From an uncultured Sphingomonas sp. (GTDB lineage Bacteria > Pseudomonadota > Alphaproteobacteria > Sphingomonadales > Sphingomonadaceae): a DNA stretch of 36,164 nucleotides. The position numbers and the translations under genes are program-made. Below the pieces are notes generated by a model, which worked only from the letters and a program-made list of their open reading frames with translations, searched no databases and was not told the DNA's origin. Below, piece after piece: positions 6,992 to 31,489 of this stretch. The DNA lies in contig NZ_CALMAW010000130.1 of the NCBI RefSeq assembly GCF_937859915.1, forward strand, positions 1 to 36,164, given 5' to 3'. The first letter of the stretch is position 1. The number at the start of each line of letters is the position of its first letter.

Positions 6992-8014
6992 ATGGCCAAG
7001 AGCGCCGCGATCGAGCGGGCGCTGGACCGGCCCGATCCGGCGATCCGCTGCTATCTCCTCTACGGCCCCGACGAGTCGGGGTCTCGGGCGCTCGCCAAGC
7101 GGCTTGAGGCCGCGATGGGCGCCGATGCCGACCGCATCGATCTCGAACCCGCGCGGCTGACCGCAGACCCCGCGCTGCTCGCCGACGAGGCCGCTGCAGG
7201 ATCGCTGTTCGGCGGCCCGCGGCACATCCGCGTCGAGGGCGTCACCGACAGCTGTCTGGCGGCGGTCGAGGCGCTGCTCGAGGCGCCCGCGGCGGGCAAT
7301 CCGGTGGTGCTGATCGCGGGCGCGCTCAAGAAGGACGCCAAGCTCGTCAAGCGGCTCGACGGTGACAGGGCGGCGATGAGCTTTCAGAGCTGGCCGCCGA
7401 CCGACGCCGATTTCGATCGGCTGGCGATCGAGCTCGGTCGCGCCCAGGGGCTGCGGATCGACGATGATGTCGCGCGCCGGCTTGCGCATGCCGCCGAAGG
7501 CGATCGCGCGGTGCTGGGCTCCGAGATCGTCAAGCTCGCGCTGTACGCCGATGCCGCGCCCGATCGGCCCGTCGAGGTGACCCATGCGCTGTTCGACGCG
7601 ATCAGCGCCGGGCATGGCGAAGCCGACACGACGCGCTTCGTCGATGCGGTGCTGGGCGGCGATCCGGCGAAGCTCGAGGGGGAATTGGCGCGGCTCGCCG
7701 GCGAGGGTCAGGAGGGGATCACACTGGTCCGCGCCCTGCTGCGCCGTCTGCTGCCGATGGCGGCGGCGCGCGCCGAGCTGGAACGCGGCGCCTCGCCGAG
7801 CATGGCGGCGGAGCGCCATGGTCGCGCGATGTCGCTCAAGGACCGCAAGGGCGTCGAGCGCGACGTCGGGCGCTGGCCCGCTGCCCGCCTCGCACGCGCG
7901 ATCGAACGGCTCGGCGCGCTCGACCGCGAGCTACGCCACACCGCGGGGCCGGGCACGATCGCGGCGGATGTGGAGTTCTTCGCGATCGCGCGGGCGGCGG
8001 GGCGGCGGCGGTGA
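6992..8014 (+). CDS. holA: DNA polymerase III subunit delta
   Basis: This 340-residue protein is the delta subunit of the clamp loader, which opens the beta clamp. Early residues RCYLLYGPDESGSRALAKRLEA show the AAA+-like fold with a degenerate Walker A, as is usual for delta because it does not hydrolyse ATP. SLFGGPRHIRVEG is the conserved clamp-contacting region, and the C-terminal collar has the LVRALLRRLLPM and LERGASPSMAAERHG segments. It is last in the leuS-lptE-holA run and converges on parB. Confidence 0.92.
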   Translation: MAKSAAIERALDRPDPAIRCYLLYGPDESGSRALAKRLEAAMGADADRIDLEPARLTADPALLADEAAAGSLFGGPRHIRVEGVTDSCLAAVEALLEAPAAGNPVVLIAGALKKDAKLVKRLDGDRAAMSFQSWPPTDADFDRLAIELGRAQGLRIDDDVARRLAHAAEGDRAVLGSEIVKLALYADAAPDRPVEVTHALFDAISAGHGEADTTRFVDAVLGGDPAKLEGELARLAGEGQEGITLVRALLRRLLPMAAARAELERGASPSMAAERHGRAMSLKDRKGVERDVGRWPAARLARAIERLGALDRELRHTAGPGTIAADVEFFAIARAAGRRR

Positions 8015-8040
8015 CCCCCTCGCGCTTGCTTTGCCTCCGC

Positions 8041-8128
8041 CGTCATTCCTGCGAAAGCGGGAATCCCTAGACGCTGAGTCGAACTTTCGGACGCTGCGCG
8101 TATCGATCCCGGACCAAGTGCGGGATGG
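8041..8128. repeat. Dispersed intergenic palindromic repeat between holA and parB
   Basis: The 138-bp convergent spacer carries ATTCCTGC-GAAA-GCGGGAAT (8045-8064), an 8-bp stem with one G-T pair, and a second short inverted repeat around TCCCG...CGGGA near 8109-8126. The left part (CGTCATTCCTGCGAAAGCGG) is a widespread alphaproteobacterial repeat as remembered. It may double as a bidirectional terminator. Confidence 0.6.
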
Positions 8129-8152
8129 CGAGCAATCAGCCTCGCAACACCC

Positions 8153-9040
8153 CTAGATCTTTTCACCGCTGAGCCGCTGGCAGATCATGTCGAGCTGGTC
8201 GAGCGACGAATAGGCGAGCGAGACCACCCCGCCCTCGCCGTCGTTCGCGATCCGGACGCTGAGCCCGAGCATGTCGCCAAGTTGCCGTTCGAGCGCGGCG
8301 ATGTCGGCATCGGGTGCCGGCGCGGCCTTCGCGCCTCGCGGCGCGCCCTCCCCCTTCGGCTTGCTCAATCGCGCGAGCTGCTCGGTCTCGCGCACCGACA
8401 GGCCGCGGCGGATCACGTCGGCGGCGAGCGCCTGCGGATCGGGCGCGGTGATCAGCGCGCGGGCATGACCCATCGACAGCGCGCCGTTGGCGACGTCGTC
8501 GCGCACCGATTCGGGAAGGTCGAGCAGCCGCAGCAGGTTCGCGACATGGCTGCGAGATTTGTGGACGAGCTTGCCCAGCTCCTCCTGGCTGTGCCCGAAA
8601 TCCTTGGTAAGCTTATGATAAGCCTGCGCTTCTTCGATCGCGTTGAGATCGGCGCGCTGGATGTTCTCGACGATCGCGATCTCGAGCGTCTCGGTGTCGG
8701 TGAACTCGCGGACGATCGCGGGGATCTCGTGCAGCCGCGCCCGCTGCGACGCGCGCCAGCGCCGCTCGCCCGCGACGATCTGATAGCCGGTGCCAAGCCG
8801 GCGCACCACGATTGGCTGCAGCACGCCACGTTCGGAAATCGATTGGGCGAGCTCGTCGAGCTTATCCTCGTCGAAATGGCGGCGCGGCTGCTCGGGATGC
8901 GGCTTGATGTCGGCGATCGACAGCATGCGGATATTCTGGCCTTGCGGCTCGCCGACCGAAATCCGGTCGATCTCGCCCATCAGCGCCGACAGGCCGCGTC
9001 CCAGCCCCGCTGGTTTGCGCCGGGTCGGGTCGATGCTCAT
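8153..9040 (-). CDS. parB: Chromosome-partitioning protein ParB
   Basis: From the ATG at 9040 the protein has 295 residues. ParB loads at parS sites as a CTP-dependent clamp and spreads to form the partition complex moved by ParA. Visible parts: the conserved GLGRGLSALMGE N-terminus that contacts ParA; the CTP-binding core with IKPHPEQPRRHFD, GERRWRAS and ENIQRADLNAIEEA; a helix-turn-helix around HSQEELGKLVHKSRSHVANL; and a C-terminal dimerisation domain. The ATG overlaps the parA stop by 4 bp. Two perfect candidate binding sites lie about 1.3 and 3.2 kb upstream. Confidence 0.97.
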   Translation of the reverse strand: MSIDPTRRKPAGLGRGLSALMGEIDRISVGEPQGQNIRMLSIADIKPHPEQPRRHFDEDKLDELAQSISERGVLQPIVVRRLGTGYQIVAGERRWRASQRARLHEIPAIVREFTDTETLEIAIVENIQRADLNAIEEAQAYHKLTKDFGHSQEELGKLVHKSRSHVANLLRLLDLPESVRDDVANGALSMGHARALITAPDPQALAADVIRRGLSVRETEQLARLSKPKGEGAPRGAKAAPAPDADIAALERQLGDMLGLSVRIANDGEGGVVSLAYSSLDQLDMICQRLSGEKI

Positions 9041-23561: not shown

Positions 23562-23636
23562 GCGGGCGTAGCTCAGGGGTAGAGCACAACCTTGCCAAGG
23601 TTGGGGTCGAGGGTTCGAATCCCTTCGCCCGCTCCA
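23562..23636 (+). tRNA. tRNA-Gly (GCC anticodon)
   Basis: The cloverleaf can be folded by eye: acceptor stem GCGGGCG pairs with CGCCCGC; the D arm is GCTC-AGGGGTA-GAGC; the anticodon arm CAACC-TTGCCAA-GGTTG presents GCC; and the T arm is GAGGG-TTCGAAT-CCCTT with one mismatch-type pair. The 3' end TCCA is encoded, so CCA is in the DNA. The 3' half is the apparent integration target of the island that follows. Confidence 0.97.
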
Positions 23637-23740: not shown

Positions 23741-25033
23741 TTGGCGAAGGCGAATCCTAGGCAGCCAGCACCGGTTGCACCATCTGCAGAACGCAGCGAG
23801 TCGTCAGCAAAGGGTGCGGTGGTGGACTCCCGTACGTTCAGGGACGGCCTGATCTACCTCTACAAGCGTGCCGATTACGCTAAGCCCACCTGGCTCTGCC
23901 GGGTGAAGGTGCCGGGCGCCAAAGGCTACGCTAATCGCAGCACGGGGACGGGTGACGAGCACCAAGCCTTTAAGTTCGCCGACGACCTCTACAACCGGCT
24001 TCTGGTCAACTCGCTAACCGGGGTGGCCCCGCCATCGAAGCGGATTGGTCCCGTGATCGATGCTTACATAAAGCGGCTGGAGCCGGACAAGGCTCGCAAG
24101 TCGATCGGCTACAAGATCCTGCTGATGAAGCGAGTGAAGCCAACCCTCGATCACAGGACGTTCGACGAGCTCTCGACGGCGTTGCTGTCCAAGGTGATCG
24201 ACGACCAGATTGCCCTGACCAAGAAGGGTTCTCTTTCCCCGAACACGATCAAGCGAATCTACGGCGACCTGCGGCACTTCCTGCAATGGTGCATGGACCA
24301 GGGGCACATCGATGCGTTGACGAAGTTTCCCAAGGTCATCGGCGTTGCATCCCGCCGTCCGCACTTCAATGCGAAGGATTGGCAGAAGCTGACCCGATAC
24401 CTCCAGGAGTTCGTAAAGATCGAAAATGGGGCGATTCGGCGGGATCGAAAGATGCTGCGGGATTACGTTCTGATCCTCGCCAACACGGGCATCCGTGTCG
24501 GCGAAGCCCGCATCCTCAAATGGCGAGACCTAAGCGAAGTTAGCGGGGAAGATGGTGCCCCGAACATCGTGCTGGCTGTGGCGGGTAAGACGGGCAAGCG
24601 AGACGTCGTGGCACGATCAGCCGAGGTAAAGACCTACTTCAAACGGATACGTGATCTCCGGATTGAAGAGCTGACCACACCAGAGACGCCCAAGCCAAAG
24701 CTCGATCCCGATAGCCTCATCTTCTGTCACAAGGACGGATCAGCGATCGGCACGTTCAAGAAGTCGTTTGCGGCGCTGGTCAAAGCAGCCAGGGTCGAGA
24801 AGGACACCCACGGTGACCCCCGGACGCTTTACTCGCTGCGGCACACCTATGCGACGTTCCGCCTCCATAACGGCGTCAATCACTACACGCTGGGGAGGAA
24901 TATGGGCACGACGGTCGCCATGCTGGAGCAGTACTATGGGCATACGTCGAATGTCATTTCGGCCAAGGAGTTGACCAAGATCAGCGGTGGCAAGGCAAGC
25001 GGAGCATCGTCATCCATGAAGTGGCTTGATTAG
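23741..25033 (+). CDS. Tyrosine-type site-specific integrase
   Basis: The 430-residue recombinase has an N-terminal DNA-binding region, a SAM-like core-binding domain (about 100-200), and a catalytic domain. Catalytic arginine I is in ANTGIRVGEARILKW (Arg252), the beta-hairpin lysine in AGKTGKR, and arginine II in LYSLRHTYATFRL (Arg367). The nucleophile is one of the paired tyrosines in EQYYGH (398-399). The first histidine of HxxR is replaced by Tyr364 and the later LGH is MGT, as in one branch of these integrases. The start appears to be TTG at 23741. It faces away from the tRNA-Gly gene and probably integrated the island. Confidence 0.93.
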   Translation: MAKANPRQPAPVAPSAERSESSAKGAVVDSRTFRDGLIYLYKRADYAKPTWLCRVKVPGAKGYANRSTGTGDEHQAFKFADDLYNRLLVNSLTGVAPPSKRIGPVIDAYIKRLEPDKARKSIGYKILLMKRVKPTLDHRTFDELSTALLSKVIDDQIALTKKGSLSPNTIKRIYGDLRHFLQWCMDQGHIDALTKFPKVIGVASRRPHFNAKDWQKLTRYLQEFVKIENGAIRRDRKMLRDYVLILANTGIRVGEARILKWRDLSEVSGEDGAPNIVLAVAGKTGKRDVVARSAEVKTYFKRIRDLRIEELTTPETPKPKLDPDSLIFCHKDGSAIGTFKKSFAALVKAARVEKDTHGDPRTLYSLRHTYATFRLHNGVNHYTLGRNMGTTVAMLEQYYGHTSNVISAKELTKISGGKASGASSSMKWLD

Positions 25034-26753: not shown

Positions 26754-26823
26754 ACACGAGGTGGCTAGCAAATGACACGTCTGGGGGACAGACCAAAACG
26801 AGCATCCGTTGCCATGCAGGACC

Positions 26824-27042
26824 ATGGATTTGGTTCAACTCCTTGGCGAGAATGTCCGGCAAGCCCGCAAGGCGCAGGGTATGTCGCAGGAGGAGCTGGC
26901 GTTCCGAGCCGGGATGAAGCGGAGCTACCTTAGCGATCTTGAACGAGGGACACGCAATCCAACCGTTCGGGCGCTGGGTCGACTTGCTGATGCACTCGCA
27001 ATGTCACCCGGCACACTACTAGAACTATTACCAAGACCTTAG
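26824..27042 (+). CDS. XRE-family helix-turn-helix regulator
   Basis: From ATG 26824 the protein has 72 residues, essentially one XRE DNA-binding domain. VRQARKAQGMSQEELAFRAG and MKRSYLSDLERGTRNPTVR show the two recognition-region helices, with the canonical SQEELA and SYLSDLERG signatures. Nothing else is attached, so it would act as a dimer without a sensor domain. It is divergent from the lipoprotein/TM2 pair and its stop lies 3 bases from the end of the convergent DUF6414-like gene. It may control either neighbour. Confidence 0.88.
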   Translation: MDLVQLLGENVRQARKAQGMSQEELAFRAGMKRSYLSDLERGTRNPTVRALGRLADALAMSPGTLLELLPRP

Positions 27043-27045
27043 CAG

Positions 27046-27915
27046 CTATATTACTGCGTATATTGCTATCGGATCTATAATTATCTCATTCTGGGATGGA
27101 CCCGAGAAGACCTGCTCAAGAACTCTCATATGAACTGCTAAAGATCTCATTGATGATTTTACGCCGTCGCTGGTGCTTACATCTGGAGGCACAATCGACT
27201 GTTCTGTCCCGCCACCAATCTGGGTGACAAGCCCGATCATGGTGAAGTTTGACTGCGTAAATCTAGAATACTTATGCAATATCATAGATTCGCTTTCTCG
27301 CAAAAACTCCCTTTTTAGAGGAGCAGAAAACAAATATCCCGAGTGGAGCATACTAGCCTCAATCATGCCGCCAAAACCGAACTCTATTAGCTTTGATGAC
27401 GCCGCAATAAACTTCTTGTCGAGCTGCATACCTGCAGCCGCCGCGAGTTTTCGAACTTGATCATCCGGGAGAGGTTTCCCGTTACTTGTTAACGAACTTT
27501 GGCCCGTGTTCGCGACGCGCCAAAACGCTTCGCCAATCTCATTGAAGTTAGACAGCAAGCCGTGCGTTGCAGCAACATCATTGATCGTCAGACGAGCGTC
27601 TATTTTTACGAACAAGTTCGTTGACTTAACCGCGAAATCATTGTCGTCTGACGAAATAAGCATATCGTCAGTTCTAAGCTTATCTTCTAGGATCGTATAA
27701 GCATGATCCTCCAAGAACTTTAGTTCAGCTGAAGACTTCTCTTTGGAAAATATATCAGCTAGGACCTTTCCGCTCGAAAGTGGGCCTTTCTGACTCTCTT
27801 GCTCCGTTGATTTTTCCAATTCTGTTAAAAGTAGCTGGTTGGTGATTCCTTCAAAGACCTGTGACGAAATTGATCGTAATTTAGTTGAATCAAGATATAG
27901 GAAATTCCTAATCAT
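27046..27915 (-). CDS. DUF6414-like protein, third gene of an overlapping cassette
   Basis: The 289-residue soluble protein begins IRNFLYLDSTKLRSISSQ, with VFEGI after it. This start, together with a mixed strand/helix body, resembles proteins remembered as DUF6414; that number is uncertain. There is no Walker motif, nuclease motif or signal peptide that I can identify. A glycine-rich stretch (LIEFGFGGMIEASML) and a C-terminal strand (NEIIIDPIAIYAVI) are visible. It starts at ATG 27915, preceded by AGGAAG, and overlaps the 50-residue membrane protein gene by ATGA. AT content is clearly higher than the core genome, a sign of transfer. Confidence 0.8.
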   Translation of the reverse strand: MIRNFLYLDSTKLRSISSQVFEGITNQLLLTELEKSTEQESQKGPLSSGKVLADIFSKEKSSAELKFLEDHAYTILEDKLRTDDMLISSDDNDFAVKSTNLFVKIDARLTINDVAATHGLLSNFNEIGEAFWRVANTGQSSLTSNGKPLPDDQVRKLAAAAGMQLDKKFIAASSKLIEFGFGGMIEASMLHSGYLFSAPLKREFLRESESMILHKYSRFTQSNFTMIGLVTQIGGGTEQSIVPPDVSTSDGVKSSMRSLAVHMRVLEQVFSGPSQNEIIIDPIAIYAVI

Positions 27916-28064
27916 TTTCTGCGCTTCCTATTAATGTATTCGCCGTAATATTTTTTACGGGTTCTGATTGCATATGCCGTCGTGATAGCGAGGCTGATCC
28001 CGGCGGAAATCAACGTTACCGCTGGAAGCCAAGATGTCAGTACGTGGGTAAATAAGTGGATCAT
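27912..28064 (-). CDS. 50-residue single-span membrane protein, middle gene of cassette
   Basis: This short gene encodes MIHLFTHVLTSWLPAVTLIS, then AGISLAITTAYAIRTRKK, YYGEYINRKRRK. A single hydrophobic helix (about 9-32) is followed by a strongly basic tail, predicting a membrane protein with the tail in the cytoplasm. GAAGGA precedes the ATG at 28064. Both ends overlap neighbours by 4 bp (ATGA with the multi-span protein before and the DUF6414-like gene after), which is strong evidence that the frame is real despite its size. Unknown family; possibly a membrane anchor or regulator for the partner proteins. Confidence 0.8.
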   Translation of the reverse strand: MIHLFTHVLTSWLPAVTLISAGISLAITTAYAIRTRKKYYGEYINRKRRK

Positions 28065-28465
28065 TCGCTCGATCCTTCATCTGACTGTATAGAAGACCCC
28101 CAGAAAACGACCAGCCCAGACACAAATGATACAATAGCAAGAACGCCAGTGGAATCTAATATCGCGGTATCACGGAGATCCTTAATCGATAATATCGTCG
28201 TAAACAGCAGAAGTGCGTAGAGAACGATAAACAATATCGATATTACAAGATGGATATTGCTCCAAACCTCTTCGAAGTTAGATCGACTGATCTCATTTAT
28301 GTTTGCGCTGTGGACTACAAGGCCGAATGCAACCAGATCAGAAACGGCAAAGGGCTCAACCCCTTGTTTTGAAAGTTCCCAAACAAAGAGTCGTGCCACG
28401 ACAGGAATGAGGCCGAGCAGACATATATTCGTGAACCAGGACGTCAGTCGATCTCGAACGCTCAT
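28061..28465 (-). CDS. Multi-span membrane protein, first gene of cassette
   Basis: From ATG 28465, with AGCGGAG five bases before it, the protein has 134 residues; an upstream ATG at 28492 lacks a comparable site. About four hydrophobic segments are visible: NICLLGLIPVVARLFVW, SDLVAFGLVVHS, IHLVISILFIVLYALLLF and GVLAIVSFVSGLVVFW. The end is acidic (SDEGSSE). Not recognised as a known family. The stop overlaps the next gene's ATG by 4 bp, making it the first gene of the three-gene cassette. A role as membrane platform or effector is conjecture. Confidence 0.8.
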   Translation of the reverse strand: MSVRDRLTSWFTNICLLGLIPVVARLFVWELSKQGVEPFAVSDLVAFGLVVHSANINEISRSNFEEVWSNIHLVISILFIVLYALLLFTTILSIKDLRDTAILDSTGVLAIVSFVSGLVVFWGSSIQSDEGSSE

Positions 28466-28623
28466 CGCAACTCCGCTGCTAAAAACCTTCATAGCCCAAC
28501 CGTAGCTGGCCGATTGCGCAGAGAAATGATAACCGCGTATTTAGCAAGATGCAAAGCGCATGCAGCCGGTAATCTCCGGATCGTGTAGGCCGATAAAACC
28601 AATCTAAGACAGAAAACCGGCAC

Positions 28624-29265
28624 CTAGCAGCGCTCCGAGAGCCTATTAACGATGGCTTTGACGGTTTCCGCGTGGAACTTGCCGCCACGTAGGCCGCATA
28701 TACCCAGAGCGTTTAGATTGCGAGCGATAGCAGACAGAGATAGGCCCTTGATCAGCATTGGGCGAAGGATCGGTTCCAGACCGATCGCCCGGTGCATCGC
28801 GTCCTCACGGTGCAAGACAGCCAAGACGGTAGCATGGGGGCCAAGTCGGACACCTCGCTTCTTTGCTTCGGCCAACGCAGATCGGGTTCGATCGGAGATC
28901 AGCCTCCGCTCCTCCTGGGCGAGAGCGGCGAAGATATGCAGCTGAAAGTCCGTGGCATGGGGCATATCGGCAACAACGAGACCGATCCCCTGCTCCATGA
29001 TGCTAGCGATGAAGCTAACCTTCCGCGAGAACCGATCGAGCTTGGCGATCAGCAGCTTTGCAGAATGTTTCTTGGCGTGGCCGATGGCCTTCCATAGCTC
29101 GACCCGAGCATCGAGCTTCCCAGATTGCACCTCGACAAACTCGGCGATCAGCTCATCGTCTGCTTGGAGGAACTCTTGAACCTTGGATTGCTGGGCAGCC
29201 AGCCCCAATCCCGATCGACCTTGGGTGGATGTCGATACTCGAAAATAGGCCACATAACGCTGCAT
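28624..29265 (-). CDS. Serine recombinase (resolvase/invertase family)
   Basis: The 213-residue protein has the catalytic resolvase domain: YFRVSTSTQGRSGLGLAAQQ contains the nucleophilic Ser11 after the conserved YxRVS, and LLIAKLDRFSRKVSFIASIM carries the arginine-containing active-site helix. FAALAQEERRLISDRTRSAL is the dimer/E-helix region. The C-terminus is a short helix-turn-helix (LSAIARNLNALGICGLRGGK). This length is that of small resolvases and invertases, not large phage integrases. A 34-bp inverted repeat lies just upstream. Lone recombinases like this often act within islands. Confidence 0.93.
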   Translation of the reverse strand: MQRYVAYFRVSTSTQGRSGLGLAAQQSKVQEFLQADDELIAEFVEVQSGKLDARVELWKAIGHAKKHSAKLLIAKLDRFSRKVSFIASIMEQGIGLVVADMPHATDFQLHIFAALAQEERRLISDRTRSALAEAKKRGVRLGPHATVLAVLHREDAMHRAIGLEPILRPMLIKGLSLSAIARNLNALGICGLRGGKFHAETVKAIVNRLSERC

Positions 29266-29698: not shown

Positions 29699-29714
29699 AG
29701 GCAGTCTGCTGCCT
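29699..29714 (-). terminator. Hairpin at the end of the deoxyribosyltransferase-like gene
   Basis: AGGCAG-TCTG-CTGCCT is a perfect 6-bp stem that overlaps the stop codon of the minus-strand gene. On the minus strand it is followed by TTTTCCC, an intrinsic-terminator pattern. It would also face the convergent zinc-ribbon gene. Confidence 0.6.
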
Positions 29715-30528
29715 AGAACGGAACATCGTCGTCTAAATCGGAGTCGAATGCGGAAGCTTGTTTATGCCTAGGTCTGGCGGACTCCTCTGCGTCTCTTCTA
29801 ATCTCTACGTACTGCTCTAGCAAAAGGTCTCGACCGTGATCCGATAATGCATACGCGAGATACTCGTTGTTATTATAGTCTGTCATTTGGCTGGCATGTA
29901 CGAGCCCTTCAGAAAGCAGCTTCATTGTGGCGAGGCTTGTGACGCGCTCAGGGGTTCCAGCGGCAGAAAGCGCTTTCTTGATTCCATAAGCCGAGAGGCC
30001 ATCTGGATCAGTCATTTGGGCGTCCAGTATCTCCAACATTATGCGAGTTTTAAGCTCGTCCTGTTGAAGCGGGGCCCGCGCAGTGACCGACACAGGCAGG
30101 CTAAGAGCTCGATCCGCAGCCTCGGTAATGGCAGCTTTGACAGCGAGCTCTACATCATTCGATAAGCGCTCGAAGTCACCTTGCGACTCGGTTTTGTAAA
30201 AAATAACGGGGCGGTGGGTGATATCAAAAGGCAGAACGCCTCGTCTAGCAGCGTCGCAAGCCATCACGAGGGGCACACCAAGATTGAGAGCATAGCCAAG
30301 CTCGATGAAGACGTTCGGATTATTCTCTGAGATCTCAGCGAAGGCTATATCTGCTGCCTGTAGAGCCGTTTCGATTTTCTCAATGATCGGCTTGGTGCCT
30401 AAGATTTTGTCGGCGCGCACGGCTTTTGCACCGCCCCTCGCGATGGCGGGCGCAAACGTTTCTTCGAAGCGCCGATCGTAGGGACCTGCGTCAAACGATT
30501 GCATTACGAAACACGAGACCTGAGCCAT
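29713..30528 (-). CDS. TIR/nucleoside-deoxyribosyltransferase-like protein with C-terminal winged-helix-like region
   Basis: The 271-residue protein begins with a Rossmann-like domain (1-140): VSCFVMQSFD, then AAD-IAFAEISENNPNVFIELGYAL and LGVPLVMA. The pattern matches the fold shared by nucleoside 2-deoxyribosyltransferases and TIR-like enzymes, with a conserved glutamate (Glu76 in NVFIELGYA) at the place of the catalytic residue. The remainder (about 150-240) is helical, with DGLSAYGIKKALSAAG and TMKLLSEGLV resembling a winged helix. Such proteins act as NAD or nucleotide-cleaving effectors in some defence systems, but no sensor partner is evident. GAAGG precedes ATG 30528. Confidence 0.78.
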   Translation of the reverse strand: MAQVSCFVMQSFDAGPYDRRFEETFAPAIARGGAKAVRADKILGTKPIIEKIETALQAADIAFAEISENNPNVFIELGYALNLGVPLVMACDAARRGVLPFDITHRPVIFYKTESQGDFERLSNDVELAVKAAITEAADRALSLPVSVTARAPLQQDELKTRIMLEILDAQMTDPDGLSAYGIKKALSAAGTPERVTSLATMKLLSEGLVHASQMTDYNNNEYLAYALSDHGRDLLLEQYVEIRRDAEESARPRHKQASAFDSDLDDDVPF

Positions 30529-30685
30529 TCGGATGCCTTCACCAATGCTAGCGGGATACCCAGTGTGCAGCGGATCAGCAAACCTGTTTGTGATCGCATT
30601 TGTCCCAACGACGACGCCTCACCCGTTATTCCGTGCGGCTTGCTTATTCGTTGGCGTTGAGCAAGATTCAGCTCGGGGAGCTTGT

Positions 30686-31489
30686 ATGTCGGATCTAGCG
30701 CGTTTTTCGTTAAAGTTGCGGTTCAGCGGGGAGAGCGTCGAGGCTCGGGGATTGGATCTTTATGATGGATCCACATCGCTCCACGGGCTGGCTCAGGCAA
30801 TGCAGATCGTTCTCCATGCGTACATGCGCAACGATGTGGTGACGAGAGCGACGCCGTTGAAGGGTGCCGAAATCCGGTTCAGCTCACCGCGGCAGGGAAG
30901 TGTCCTGATCGACGTCGTGGCGTTCATTGAGAAGTATCCAGCAACCCTCGGTATCGGCGCGCCAATCTTCTATGATTTTGTAAAAACGGCGTTTTCCAAA
31001 GCGCTTGGGAAACTCAGTGTCAAGGCGGAGACACCAACCATCCAAATGGTCGAGCTGGACGGAACCTTCTTTGATCAATTGAGCGAGGTTTTAGAGGGAT
31101 CTCTACAGCGAGCTCATCGAGCCATAGATCATGGCAGAGAGAAGATAACGATCGAACGTCCTCGATCCGAGCTCGTCATGCTGAACGCGACAACAAGCCT
31201 TTGGGTTAACACTCGCGACGAAAACCCCGGCGTCGAAGACTTCAGCGGCAGCATAACGCGTTATAACTCCATTACTGGAAACGGCAGAGCGCTAATTCGG
31301 GAATTAAAGAGGGTTATCCCCTTTAGACCTGGCGATGGTTTTCCCGAAGAAAAAAGGGGACTTCTTACCTGGTCGCTCCATGGAAATACCGTGTCGGGAA
31401 ATAAAGAGCTGAAGTTTAGAGCGTCCAAAATTGAGTCCGCGACGGGTGACCCGAAAAGACTCATATTGGCTGACTGCTCACAGGCATGA
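30686..31489 (+). CDS. Unknown protein, DUF7946-like (uncertain)
   Basis: From ATG 30686, preceded by GGGGAG, the protein has 267 residues. FSLKLRFSGESVEARGLDLY and STSLHGLAQAMQIVLHAYM show a strand-then-helix start, followed by ATPLKGAEIRFSSPRQGS and a region of hydrophobic helices (YPATLGIGAPIFYDFVKTAF). The C-terminal half has several short strands. The pattern resembles a family I recall as DUF7946; the name is uncertain. An upstream ATG at 30533 would give an unlike, hydrophobic leader. Divergent from the deoxyribosyltransferase-like gene with a 157-bp spacer. No catalytic motif seen. Confidence 0.65.
   Translation: MSDLARFSLKLRFSGESVEARGLDLYDGSTSLHGLAQAMQIVLHAYMRNDVVTRATPLKGAEIRFSSPRQGSVLIDVVAFIEKYPATLGIGAPIFYDFVKTAFSKALGKLSVKAETPTIQMVELDGTFFDQLSEVLEGSLQRAHRAIDHGREKITIERPRSELVMLNATTSLWVNTRDENPGVEDFSGSITRYNSITGNGRALIRELKRVIPFRPGDGFPEEKRGLLTWSLHGNTVSGNKELKFRASKIESATGDPKRLILADCSQA

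Follow-up and report, generated by a model that had tools for sequence, protein, structure and literature searches.

Kiwa consists of a membrane protein, KwaA, and a soluble protein of about 300 amino acids, KwaB, the domain of which is DUF4868. The ZorA/ZorB core of Zorya comprises a four-span and a one-span membrane protein with cytosolic partners. RexAB, known from phage λ and as RexABpp from P. putida, pairs a soluble protein of about 280 aa with a membrane protein of about 144 aa that has four predicted spans. The activated four-span RexB of RexABpp damages membranes (PMC12894663), and λ RexA binds DNA and is structurally homologous to RdgC (PMC11077077).

The locus described here, which we call the trio, lies in a window of 36,164 nucleotides, the whole stretch of DNA that was analysed (contig NZ_CALMAW010000130.1, from an uncultured Sphingomonas sp.). 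It consists of three genes, A, B and C, transcribed in this order. The features of the window that bear on the argument are as follows:

23562 to 23636, plus strand: tRNA-Gly, probable integration site of an island, judging by the adjoining integrase
23741 to 25033, plus strand: tyrosine integrase of the island (Phage_integrase, E 1.2e-8)
27046 to 27915, minus strand: gene C, DUF6414 (PF19952) protein of 289 aa, no membrane spans
27912 to 28064, minus strand: gene B, protein of 50 aa with a single span and a basic tail
28061 to 28465, minus strand: gene A, membrane protein of 134 aa (143 aa in the longest frame, from 28492)
28624 to 29265, minus strand: serine resolvase/invertase (Resolvase, E 1.3e-23), upstream of A on the same strand and outside the trio

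The initial annotation described a minus-strand cassette of three AT-rich genes joined by two ATGA overlaps, and both points are borne out: on the minus strand A and B share the ATGA at 28061-28064 and B and C the ATGA at 27912-27915, and the GC content is 44% in the trio against 69% for positions 1-23000 of the window. The clear Shine-Dalgarno sequence that it assigned to each gene holds in part; by eye, GGAG (A), AAGGA (B) and AGGA (C) are present, but their spacing is unequal. For A we prefer the ATG at 28465 (134 aa) to the start of the longest frame at 28492 (143 aa), because GGAG lies just upstream of it and relatives begin nearby. Together, the tRNA-Gly, the tyrosine integrase and the drop in GC make it plausible that the trio sits in an island. 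The tRNA-Gly region has no second copy of 14 bases or more anywhere in the window, and the far end of the island is therefore not seen.

Three further genes lie close by. A small frame at 26809-27042 on the plus strand, which by eye resembles an XRE-type helix-turn-helix regulator, runs towards C, and the two ends stand 3 bases apart. The 271-aa protein encoded at 29713-30528 on the minus strand weakly resembles nucleoside 2-deoxyribosyltransferases and TIR-like proteins (E 7.9e-7 to a PADLOC TIR effector; E 1.3e-18 to phrog_3634); its gene may be a further defence gene of this island. At 30533-31489 on the plus strand lies the gene of a DUF7946/DUF7947 protein matching phrog_13337 (E 2.6e-81), a family without assigned function.

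Conservation and distribution of the trio

The same three genes, with both overlaps and a 50-residue middle gene, recur in a member of the same bacterial family (locus L002), where C is 53%, A 51% and B 28% identical to the window. The trio is also present, at 32% (C), 28% (A) and 23% (B) identity, in PQ189350, a Vibrio phage whose integrase is of the P2/186 type. An alignment of the three C proteins from the window, L002 and PQ189350 served as the model for a scan of genome and viral collections, which returned 43 loci, 36 from genomes and 7 viral. The profiles of A, B and C match in order on one strand in 37 of the 43. Three viral loci carry operons identical base for base to those of genome loci (L052 to L035, L053 to L042 and L054 to L024), so that 34 of the 37 are distinct. 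Among the 37, A is in two pieces in L030, and C is in pieces in seven. Of the other six loci, L021 has C and a degenerate piece of B without A, the contig of L028 begins 76 bases before B, L029 and L031 hold C without A or B, and L045, cut by a contig end, holds C only. In L040, A is present and B and C share one open frame (7866-8822); a natural fusion was considered for this frame and set aside, as inspection by eye suggests a shortened copy whose reading frame has shifted.

The first profiles included many of the tested sequences, and the models were therefore rebuilt from three seeds (window, L002 and L011). At E ≤ 0.05 the models built from the seeds alone detect A in 38 of the 43 loci and B in 34, and every listed match in L012-L054 falls at the trio. 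Order, sizes and overlaps, recurring in two relatives at 23-53% identity and in most of the 43 loci, exceed chance.

Scans of viral contigs gave 12 loci from A and 18 from C, together 19 distinct contigs. All three profiles match in order in 17 of these (C is split in two in one of them, and a pair with identical operons has a weak B, E 4e-3); contig L077 starts inside the operon. A first viral scan with C alone gave no match, nor did a search of the plasmid collection with the C proteins of the window and of the Vibrio phage. A different arrangement is seen in L068 (5869-7009), which lacks DUF6414: here an A-type protein precedes a frame of 204 aa whose start resembles B and which gives a signal for sigma-70 region 2. 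This may be a variant or a chimaera.

In the window's order, A is found in 2 of 296 genomes (the window and G242) and trio-type C in the same two among 396; in a draw from the phylum, A is found in 1 of 249 genomes, the window itself. Each of the 15 trio genomes searched has A once only. Trios with an uninterrupted C occur in at least six phyla: judged by record titles, these are Pseudomonadota (by genus), Bacteroidota, Poribacteria, Ignavibacteriae, Chloroflexi and, through Bacteriovorax, Bdellovibrionota. One trio, in Chlorobiaceae, carries an interrupted C. Pairwise distances correlate among the three proteins, with host relatedness contributing to the correlation (Mantel r 0.72 for A-C, 0.65 for B-C and 0.70 for A-B, over 28, 25 and 29 shared rows, respectively; p 0.0005). 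C and A of an Aliiglaciecola strain are 96% and 98% identical to those of a Piscirickettsiaceae metagenome-assembled genome (MAG) while the downstream genes differ. The unit as a whole may thus have been transferred recently, subject to the caveat of binning that attaches to a MAG.

The view of the trio as one system, put forward in the initial annotation, is thus strongly supported by the 37 loci with all three genes in order. The refuting observation named in the initial annotation, the three genes occurring apart, was looked for and does not hold: A and B are hardly ever found without C. A small number of loci do have a C-type gene but neither A nor B. The constancy with which A and B accompany C makes it probable that the three act together. 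Six distinct loci (L017, L041, L042, L043, L044 and L047) have open A and B genes but an interrupted or truncated C, which reflects either decay of a costly part, draft errors or switching; C is intact where A is broken (L030) or absent (L021).

The three proteins

C had been called DUF6414-like, and it is a full-length member of that family: it scores 68.3 bits against Pfam DUF6414 (PF19952; cut-off 25, E 1.2e-18), the match covering residues 2-286 and profile positions 1-283 of 283. The alignment of C holds 34 rows; left out were the interrupted or truncated copies (L017, L041, L042, L043, L044, L047 and L053), the incomplete L033 and L045, the repeat L052, and L002 and L011. A hydropathy scan finds no span in any of the 34 proteins. 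Conservation is best at the N-terminus, in Y-L-D-x-x-K-x-x-S-x-S-S-Q-x-F-E-G-x-T, and at the C-terminus, in D-P-I-A-x-Y. The predicted structure (mean pLDDT 78.1) combines strands with long helices and has an uncertain stretch at 23-47. Fold comparison of C with PDB and BFVD returned nothing at E ≤ 0.001, and its profile matched PDB chain sequences in two chance rows only (E 0.58 and 0.93). Below E 0.01, the matches of C among PHROGs are phrog_9699 and phrog_16607, both families without assigned function.

A is a multi-helix membrane protein. Its AlphaFold2 model (pLDDT 85.8, pTM 0.77) has four helices, at 12-41, 50-70, 75-101 and 108-140, and a hydropathy scan of 33 proteins counts three spans in 23 of them, four in 5 and two in 5. 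The alignment of A holds 33 rows (left out were L002, L011, L017, L030 with its broken A, L047 and the repeats L052-L054). In the numbering of the 143-aa frame, W19, P30, E67 and S85 are conserved in 33 of 33 rows and R34, D52 and N66 in 32; in the AlphaFold2 model the conserved polar residues lie in or beside helices, at or near their ends. The charge pattern, with a positive N-terminus and an acidic middle loop, weakly suggests that both ends are cytosolic. Fold comparison of A with PDB (Foldseek) gave nothing at E ≤ 0.001; as neither C nor A has a fold match at this threshold, sensing and pore formation are structurally unsupported.

The middle frame, annotated from the start as a 50-residue protein with one span and a basic tail, is confirmed by its coordinates and by hydropathy: all 31 aligned B proteins have one span, following a short N-terminus and preceding a basic tail. 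They are 42-63 aa long and share a motif of approximately S-x-x-D-T-R-x-K-Y-Y; two others have a longer tail (L046, 104 aa; L085, 139 aa). With 9 bases trimmed from each end, which leaves a few A-overlapping bases in L035/L050, dN/dS could be computed for 13 of 14 pairs, which are not independent of one another; eleven of the 13 lie at 0.04-0.41, and the two remaining pairs, both diverged, at 0.61 and 0.70. B is mostly under purifying selection, and, being conserved across loci as well, the frame is strongly supported as a real gene; it illustrates that gene finders may overlook a subunit as small as about 50 residues.

DUF6414 also occurs outside the trio. PF19952 is found in 7 of 396 genomes of the order and, in a draw of 299 genomes from the phylum, in 5, with one of these five below the cut-off. 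The non-trio loci (L003-L005, L008-L010 and L097-L100) have no match to A or B. In four of them an AAA+ gene stands beside the DUF6414 gene; the AAA+ protein of L003 is IetA-like by PADLOC (E 1e-38), and those of L004, L010 and L097 are 52-53% identical to it. The pairs of an IetA-like AAA+ gene and a DUF6414 gene are located at:

L003, 185 to 2766
L004, 170 to 2787
L010, 1429 to 2961
L097, 1096 to 3744

In L003 and L004 the AAA+ gene and the DUF6414 gene share four bases. The DUF6414 protein of these pairs has about 450 aa; L010 has a starting piece of 100 aa, the remainder standing apart in L005. Within the stretch examined, L008, L009, L098, L099 and L100 have no such AAA+ gene.

Genomic setting and proposed function

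Ten of the 43 loci (9 distinct), as well as PQ189350, have a cI-like gene upstream of the trio and a P2-type integrase downstream. No other gene separates cI from the trio, and both are on one strand, in L011, L035 (repeated as L052), L036, L037, L044 and L050, the cI of L037 being a short piece only; other genes stand between cI and the trio in L030, L048, L049 and L051. Rousset et al. 2022 describe the cI-integrase interval of a K139-like, P2-related Vibrionaceae phage as a defence hotspot, and report that the hotspots of their study carry restriction-modification, Septu, a helicase with DUF2290, and PARIS (PMC9122126). Recognised defence genes also adjoin the trio. Shango SngB and SngC lie directly upstream in L043, ending 43 bases before A, PD-T4-4 A and B are neighbours in L037, a type I methyltransferase in L038 and a type II restriction endonuclease in L019, and type ISP restriction-modification domains are found in 3 of 79 hand-picked neighbours. 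The trio is a candidate anti-phage system, a reading supported by its place, in part of the loci, in the cI-integrase hotspot or beside defence genes.

As the first 79 proteins had been hand-picked from a longer list, the neighbour test was redone by rule: from either flank of 40 loci (L011-L051 without L015) it took no more than the two closest genes whose products have 80 aa or more. The control comprised all 87 called genes of nine 12-kb stretches, placed at round-number and thus non-random coordinates, in nine trio genomes. At E ≤ 1e-10, 110 PADLOC families were matched by 146 neighbours against 27 by the 87 control genes, an excess near the trio of about 2.4-fold per protein between sets that differ in host mix; we call it modest because families rather than proteins are counted and because the control has matches of its own (Cas12f-type, ATPase-like and others). 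Among the matches listed, the families below 1e-100 are all on the trio side. Two observations speak against a mobile defence operon: many chromosomal copies of the trio stand between housekeeping genes, and C is unmatched in the plasmid collection.

Among the neighbours, a KAP ATPase of the PADLOC candidate PDC-S20 accounts for 4 of 146. It lies 3' of the trio in L044 (9002-10420), in a Vibrio/Aliivibrio-type prophage, and, judging by similar starts, a similar KAP-type ATPase follows C in L030, L035 and L048, in the shared hotspot.

By analogy with RexAB, we see about an even chance that the trio is a horizontally moving anti-phage operon that acts conditionally at the inner membrane in a RexAB-like manner. 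C would recognise a cue of infection and switch A/B; B would hold C at the membrane or couple it to A; A/B would permeabilise or depolarise the inner membrane; and the infected cell would stop growing ahead of phage release. Because some Vibrio prophages have the trio immediately behind cI and in the same orientation, its expression there is likely to be lysogenic, together with cI, as for λ rexAB. The loci with a broken C and open A/B, and those with an intact C and a broken or absent A, indicate that neither part alone appears lethal, an argument weakened by possible sequencing errors in draft genomes and MAGs and by the greater length of C. More breaks are partly to be expected in C, which is longer than A plus B. 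The trio gives DUF6414, a family without assigned function, a testable role. If the mechanism is confirmed, it would become possible to study how detection of a phage is converted into membrane failure by a multi-helix membrane protein together with a soluble sensor and a very small linker.

The roles could be the other way round. Kiwa, with its membrane sensor and cytosolic effector, is the model for a rival reading, in our view rather unlikely, that C is an effector acting on nucleic acid or another cytosolic target and A/B senses the membrane or phage entry. Conserved polar positions close to the ends of the helices of A would suit a sensor, and DUF6414 is kept with other partners and, in L029 and L031, as isolated C genes. 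Several weak, non-significant Foldseek rows for C are what we take to be OB-fold nucleic-acid binders, but no fold match for C is significant, and a PADLOC match is absent at E up to 1. That C is most often the broken gene while A/B stays open suits a trigger and an effector equally.

The position beside cI in Vibrio prophages, with two of the three products being membrane proteins, could also be read as superinfection exclusion or lysogeny maintenance at phage entry, without arrest of the cell. We consider this improbable: superinfection-exclusion proteins are usually single membrane proteins, and a conserved cytosolic partner of about 300 aa fits such a role less well, as do the spread over at least six phyla and the many copies beyond recognisable prophages.

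Tight overlaps, a small membrane protein and a mobile setting would likewise suit a toxin-antitoxin system that stabilises mobile elements, with A/B as toxin and C as antitoxin or the reverse. However, six distinct loci keep A/B open beside a broken C, two have an intact C with a broken or missing A, and others hold C alone. As neither A/B nor C is seemingly lethal alone, we favour a conditional system over a classical toxin-antitoxin pair, which is very improbable. A non-defence membrane function (stress response, transport or signalling) riding on mobile elements would agree with the many loci between housekeeping genes, but the very patchy presence of the trio (C in 2 of 396 genomes of the order) and its spread over phyla, together with the prophage hotspot and the defence neighbours in part of the loci, makes it the remotest of the readings. 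As a conserved unit that crosses phyla and stands in a recognised defence hotspot, the trio is a ready target for phage tests.

Comparison with described systems

The initial annotation knew of no described system with this combination of genes, and the searches agree. The window's A, B and C match no family of PADLOC-DB 2023 at E up to 1, and those of the Vibrio phage none at E up to 0.01. In NCBIfam the window proteins are unmatched and the Vibrio phage proteins give weak rows far below the cut-offs. A search of open-access papers, with supplementary tables and preprints outside its scope, found none naming DUF6414 or PF19952, and among titles and the beginnings of abstracts none describing the trio.

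Zorya resembles the trio in having four-span and one-span membrane proteins with a cytosolic partner. The flagellar stator PomA is among the weak Foldseek rows for A, at a non-significant E of about 2, and the MotA/ExbB family is absent among the best 25 of 47 Pfam families for the 33 A proteins. The 31 aligned B proteins, at 42-63 aa, are too short for a periplasmic domain. Kiwa, like the trio, combines a membrane protein with a soluble one, of about 300 aa; however, the trio has no PADLOC match at E up to 1 in a library that presumably includes Kwa models, C carries DUF6414 only, and gene B is an addition.

RexAB comes close in layout. Its soluble and its membrane protein resemble C and A in size, and its place behind cI on the same strand is that of the trio in several Vibrio prophages. 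The four helices of the RexAB membrane protein are found for A in the AlphaFold2 model, while hydropathy counts two to four. The trio differs in having three genes, one of them for a conserved small protein, and in placing the membrane gene first. A relation to RexA and RexB was considered and is rejected at the level of sequence: in hhalign comparisons whose power is limited by a single sequence on the Rex side, the 34-row profile of C against λ RexA and the 33-row profile of A against λ RexB reach probabilities of 0.1% and 0.3%, respectively. RexA entries are absent among the best 50 of 88 Foldseek rows for C. Judged by sequence, the trio is neither RexAB nor Kiwa. Its RexAB-like layout, combined with a lack of similarity and a third conserved part, leads us to place it as RexAB-like in working and not as RexAB itself.

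The pairs of IetA-like AAA+ and DUF6414 genes offer a second comparison. As in the trio, the DUF6414 gene overlaps its upstream partner by four bases (L003 and L004); unlike in the trio, the partner is an AAA+ ATPase rather than a membrane protein, and the DUF6414 protein has about 450 aa. Since DUF6414 pairs with an IetA-like AAA+ ATPase too, it is possibly a shared module. We tentatively suggest, at somewhat less than even confidence, that DUF6414 is a shared module that senses infection or acts as a switch, and whose effector would be a two-part membrane assembly with a conserved 42-63-residue subunit here and an IetA-like AAA+ ATPase elsewhere, and that the trio would then represent a new, widespread, membrane-acting immune system unrelated by detectable sequence to RexAB, Kiwa and Zorya.
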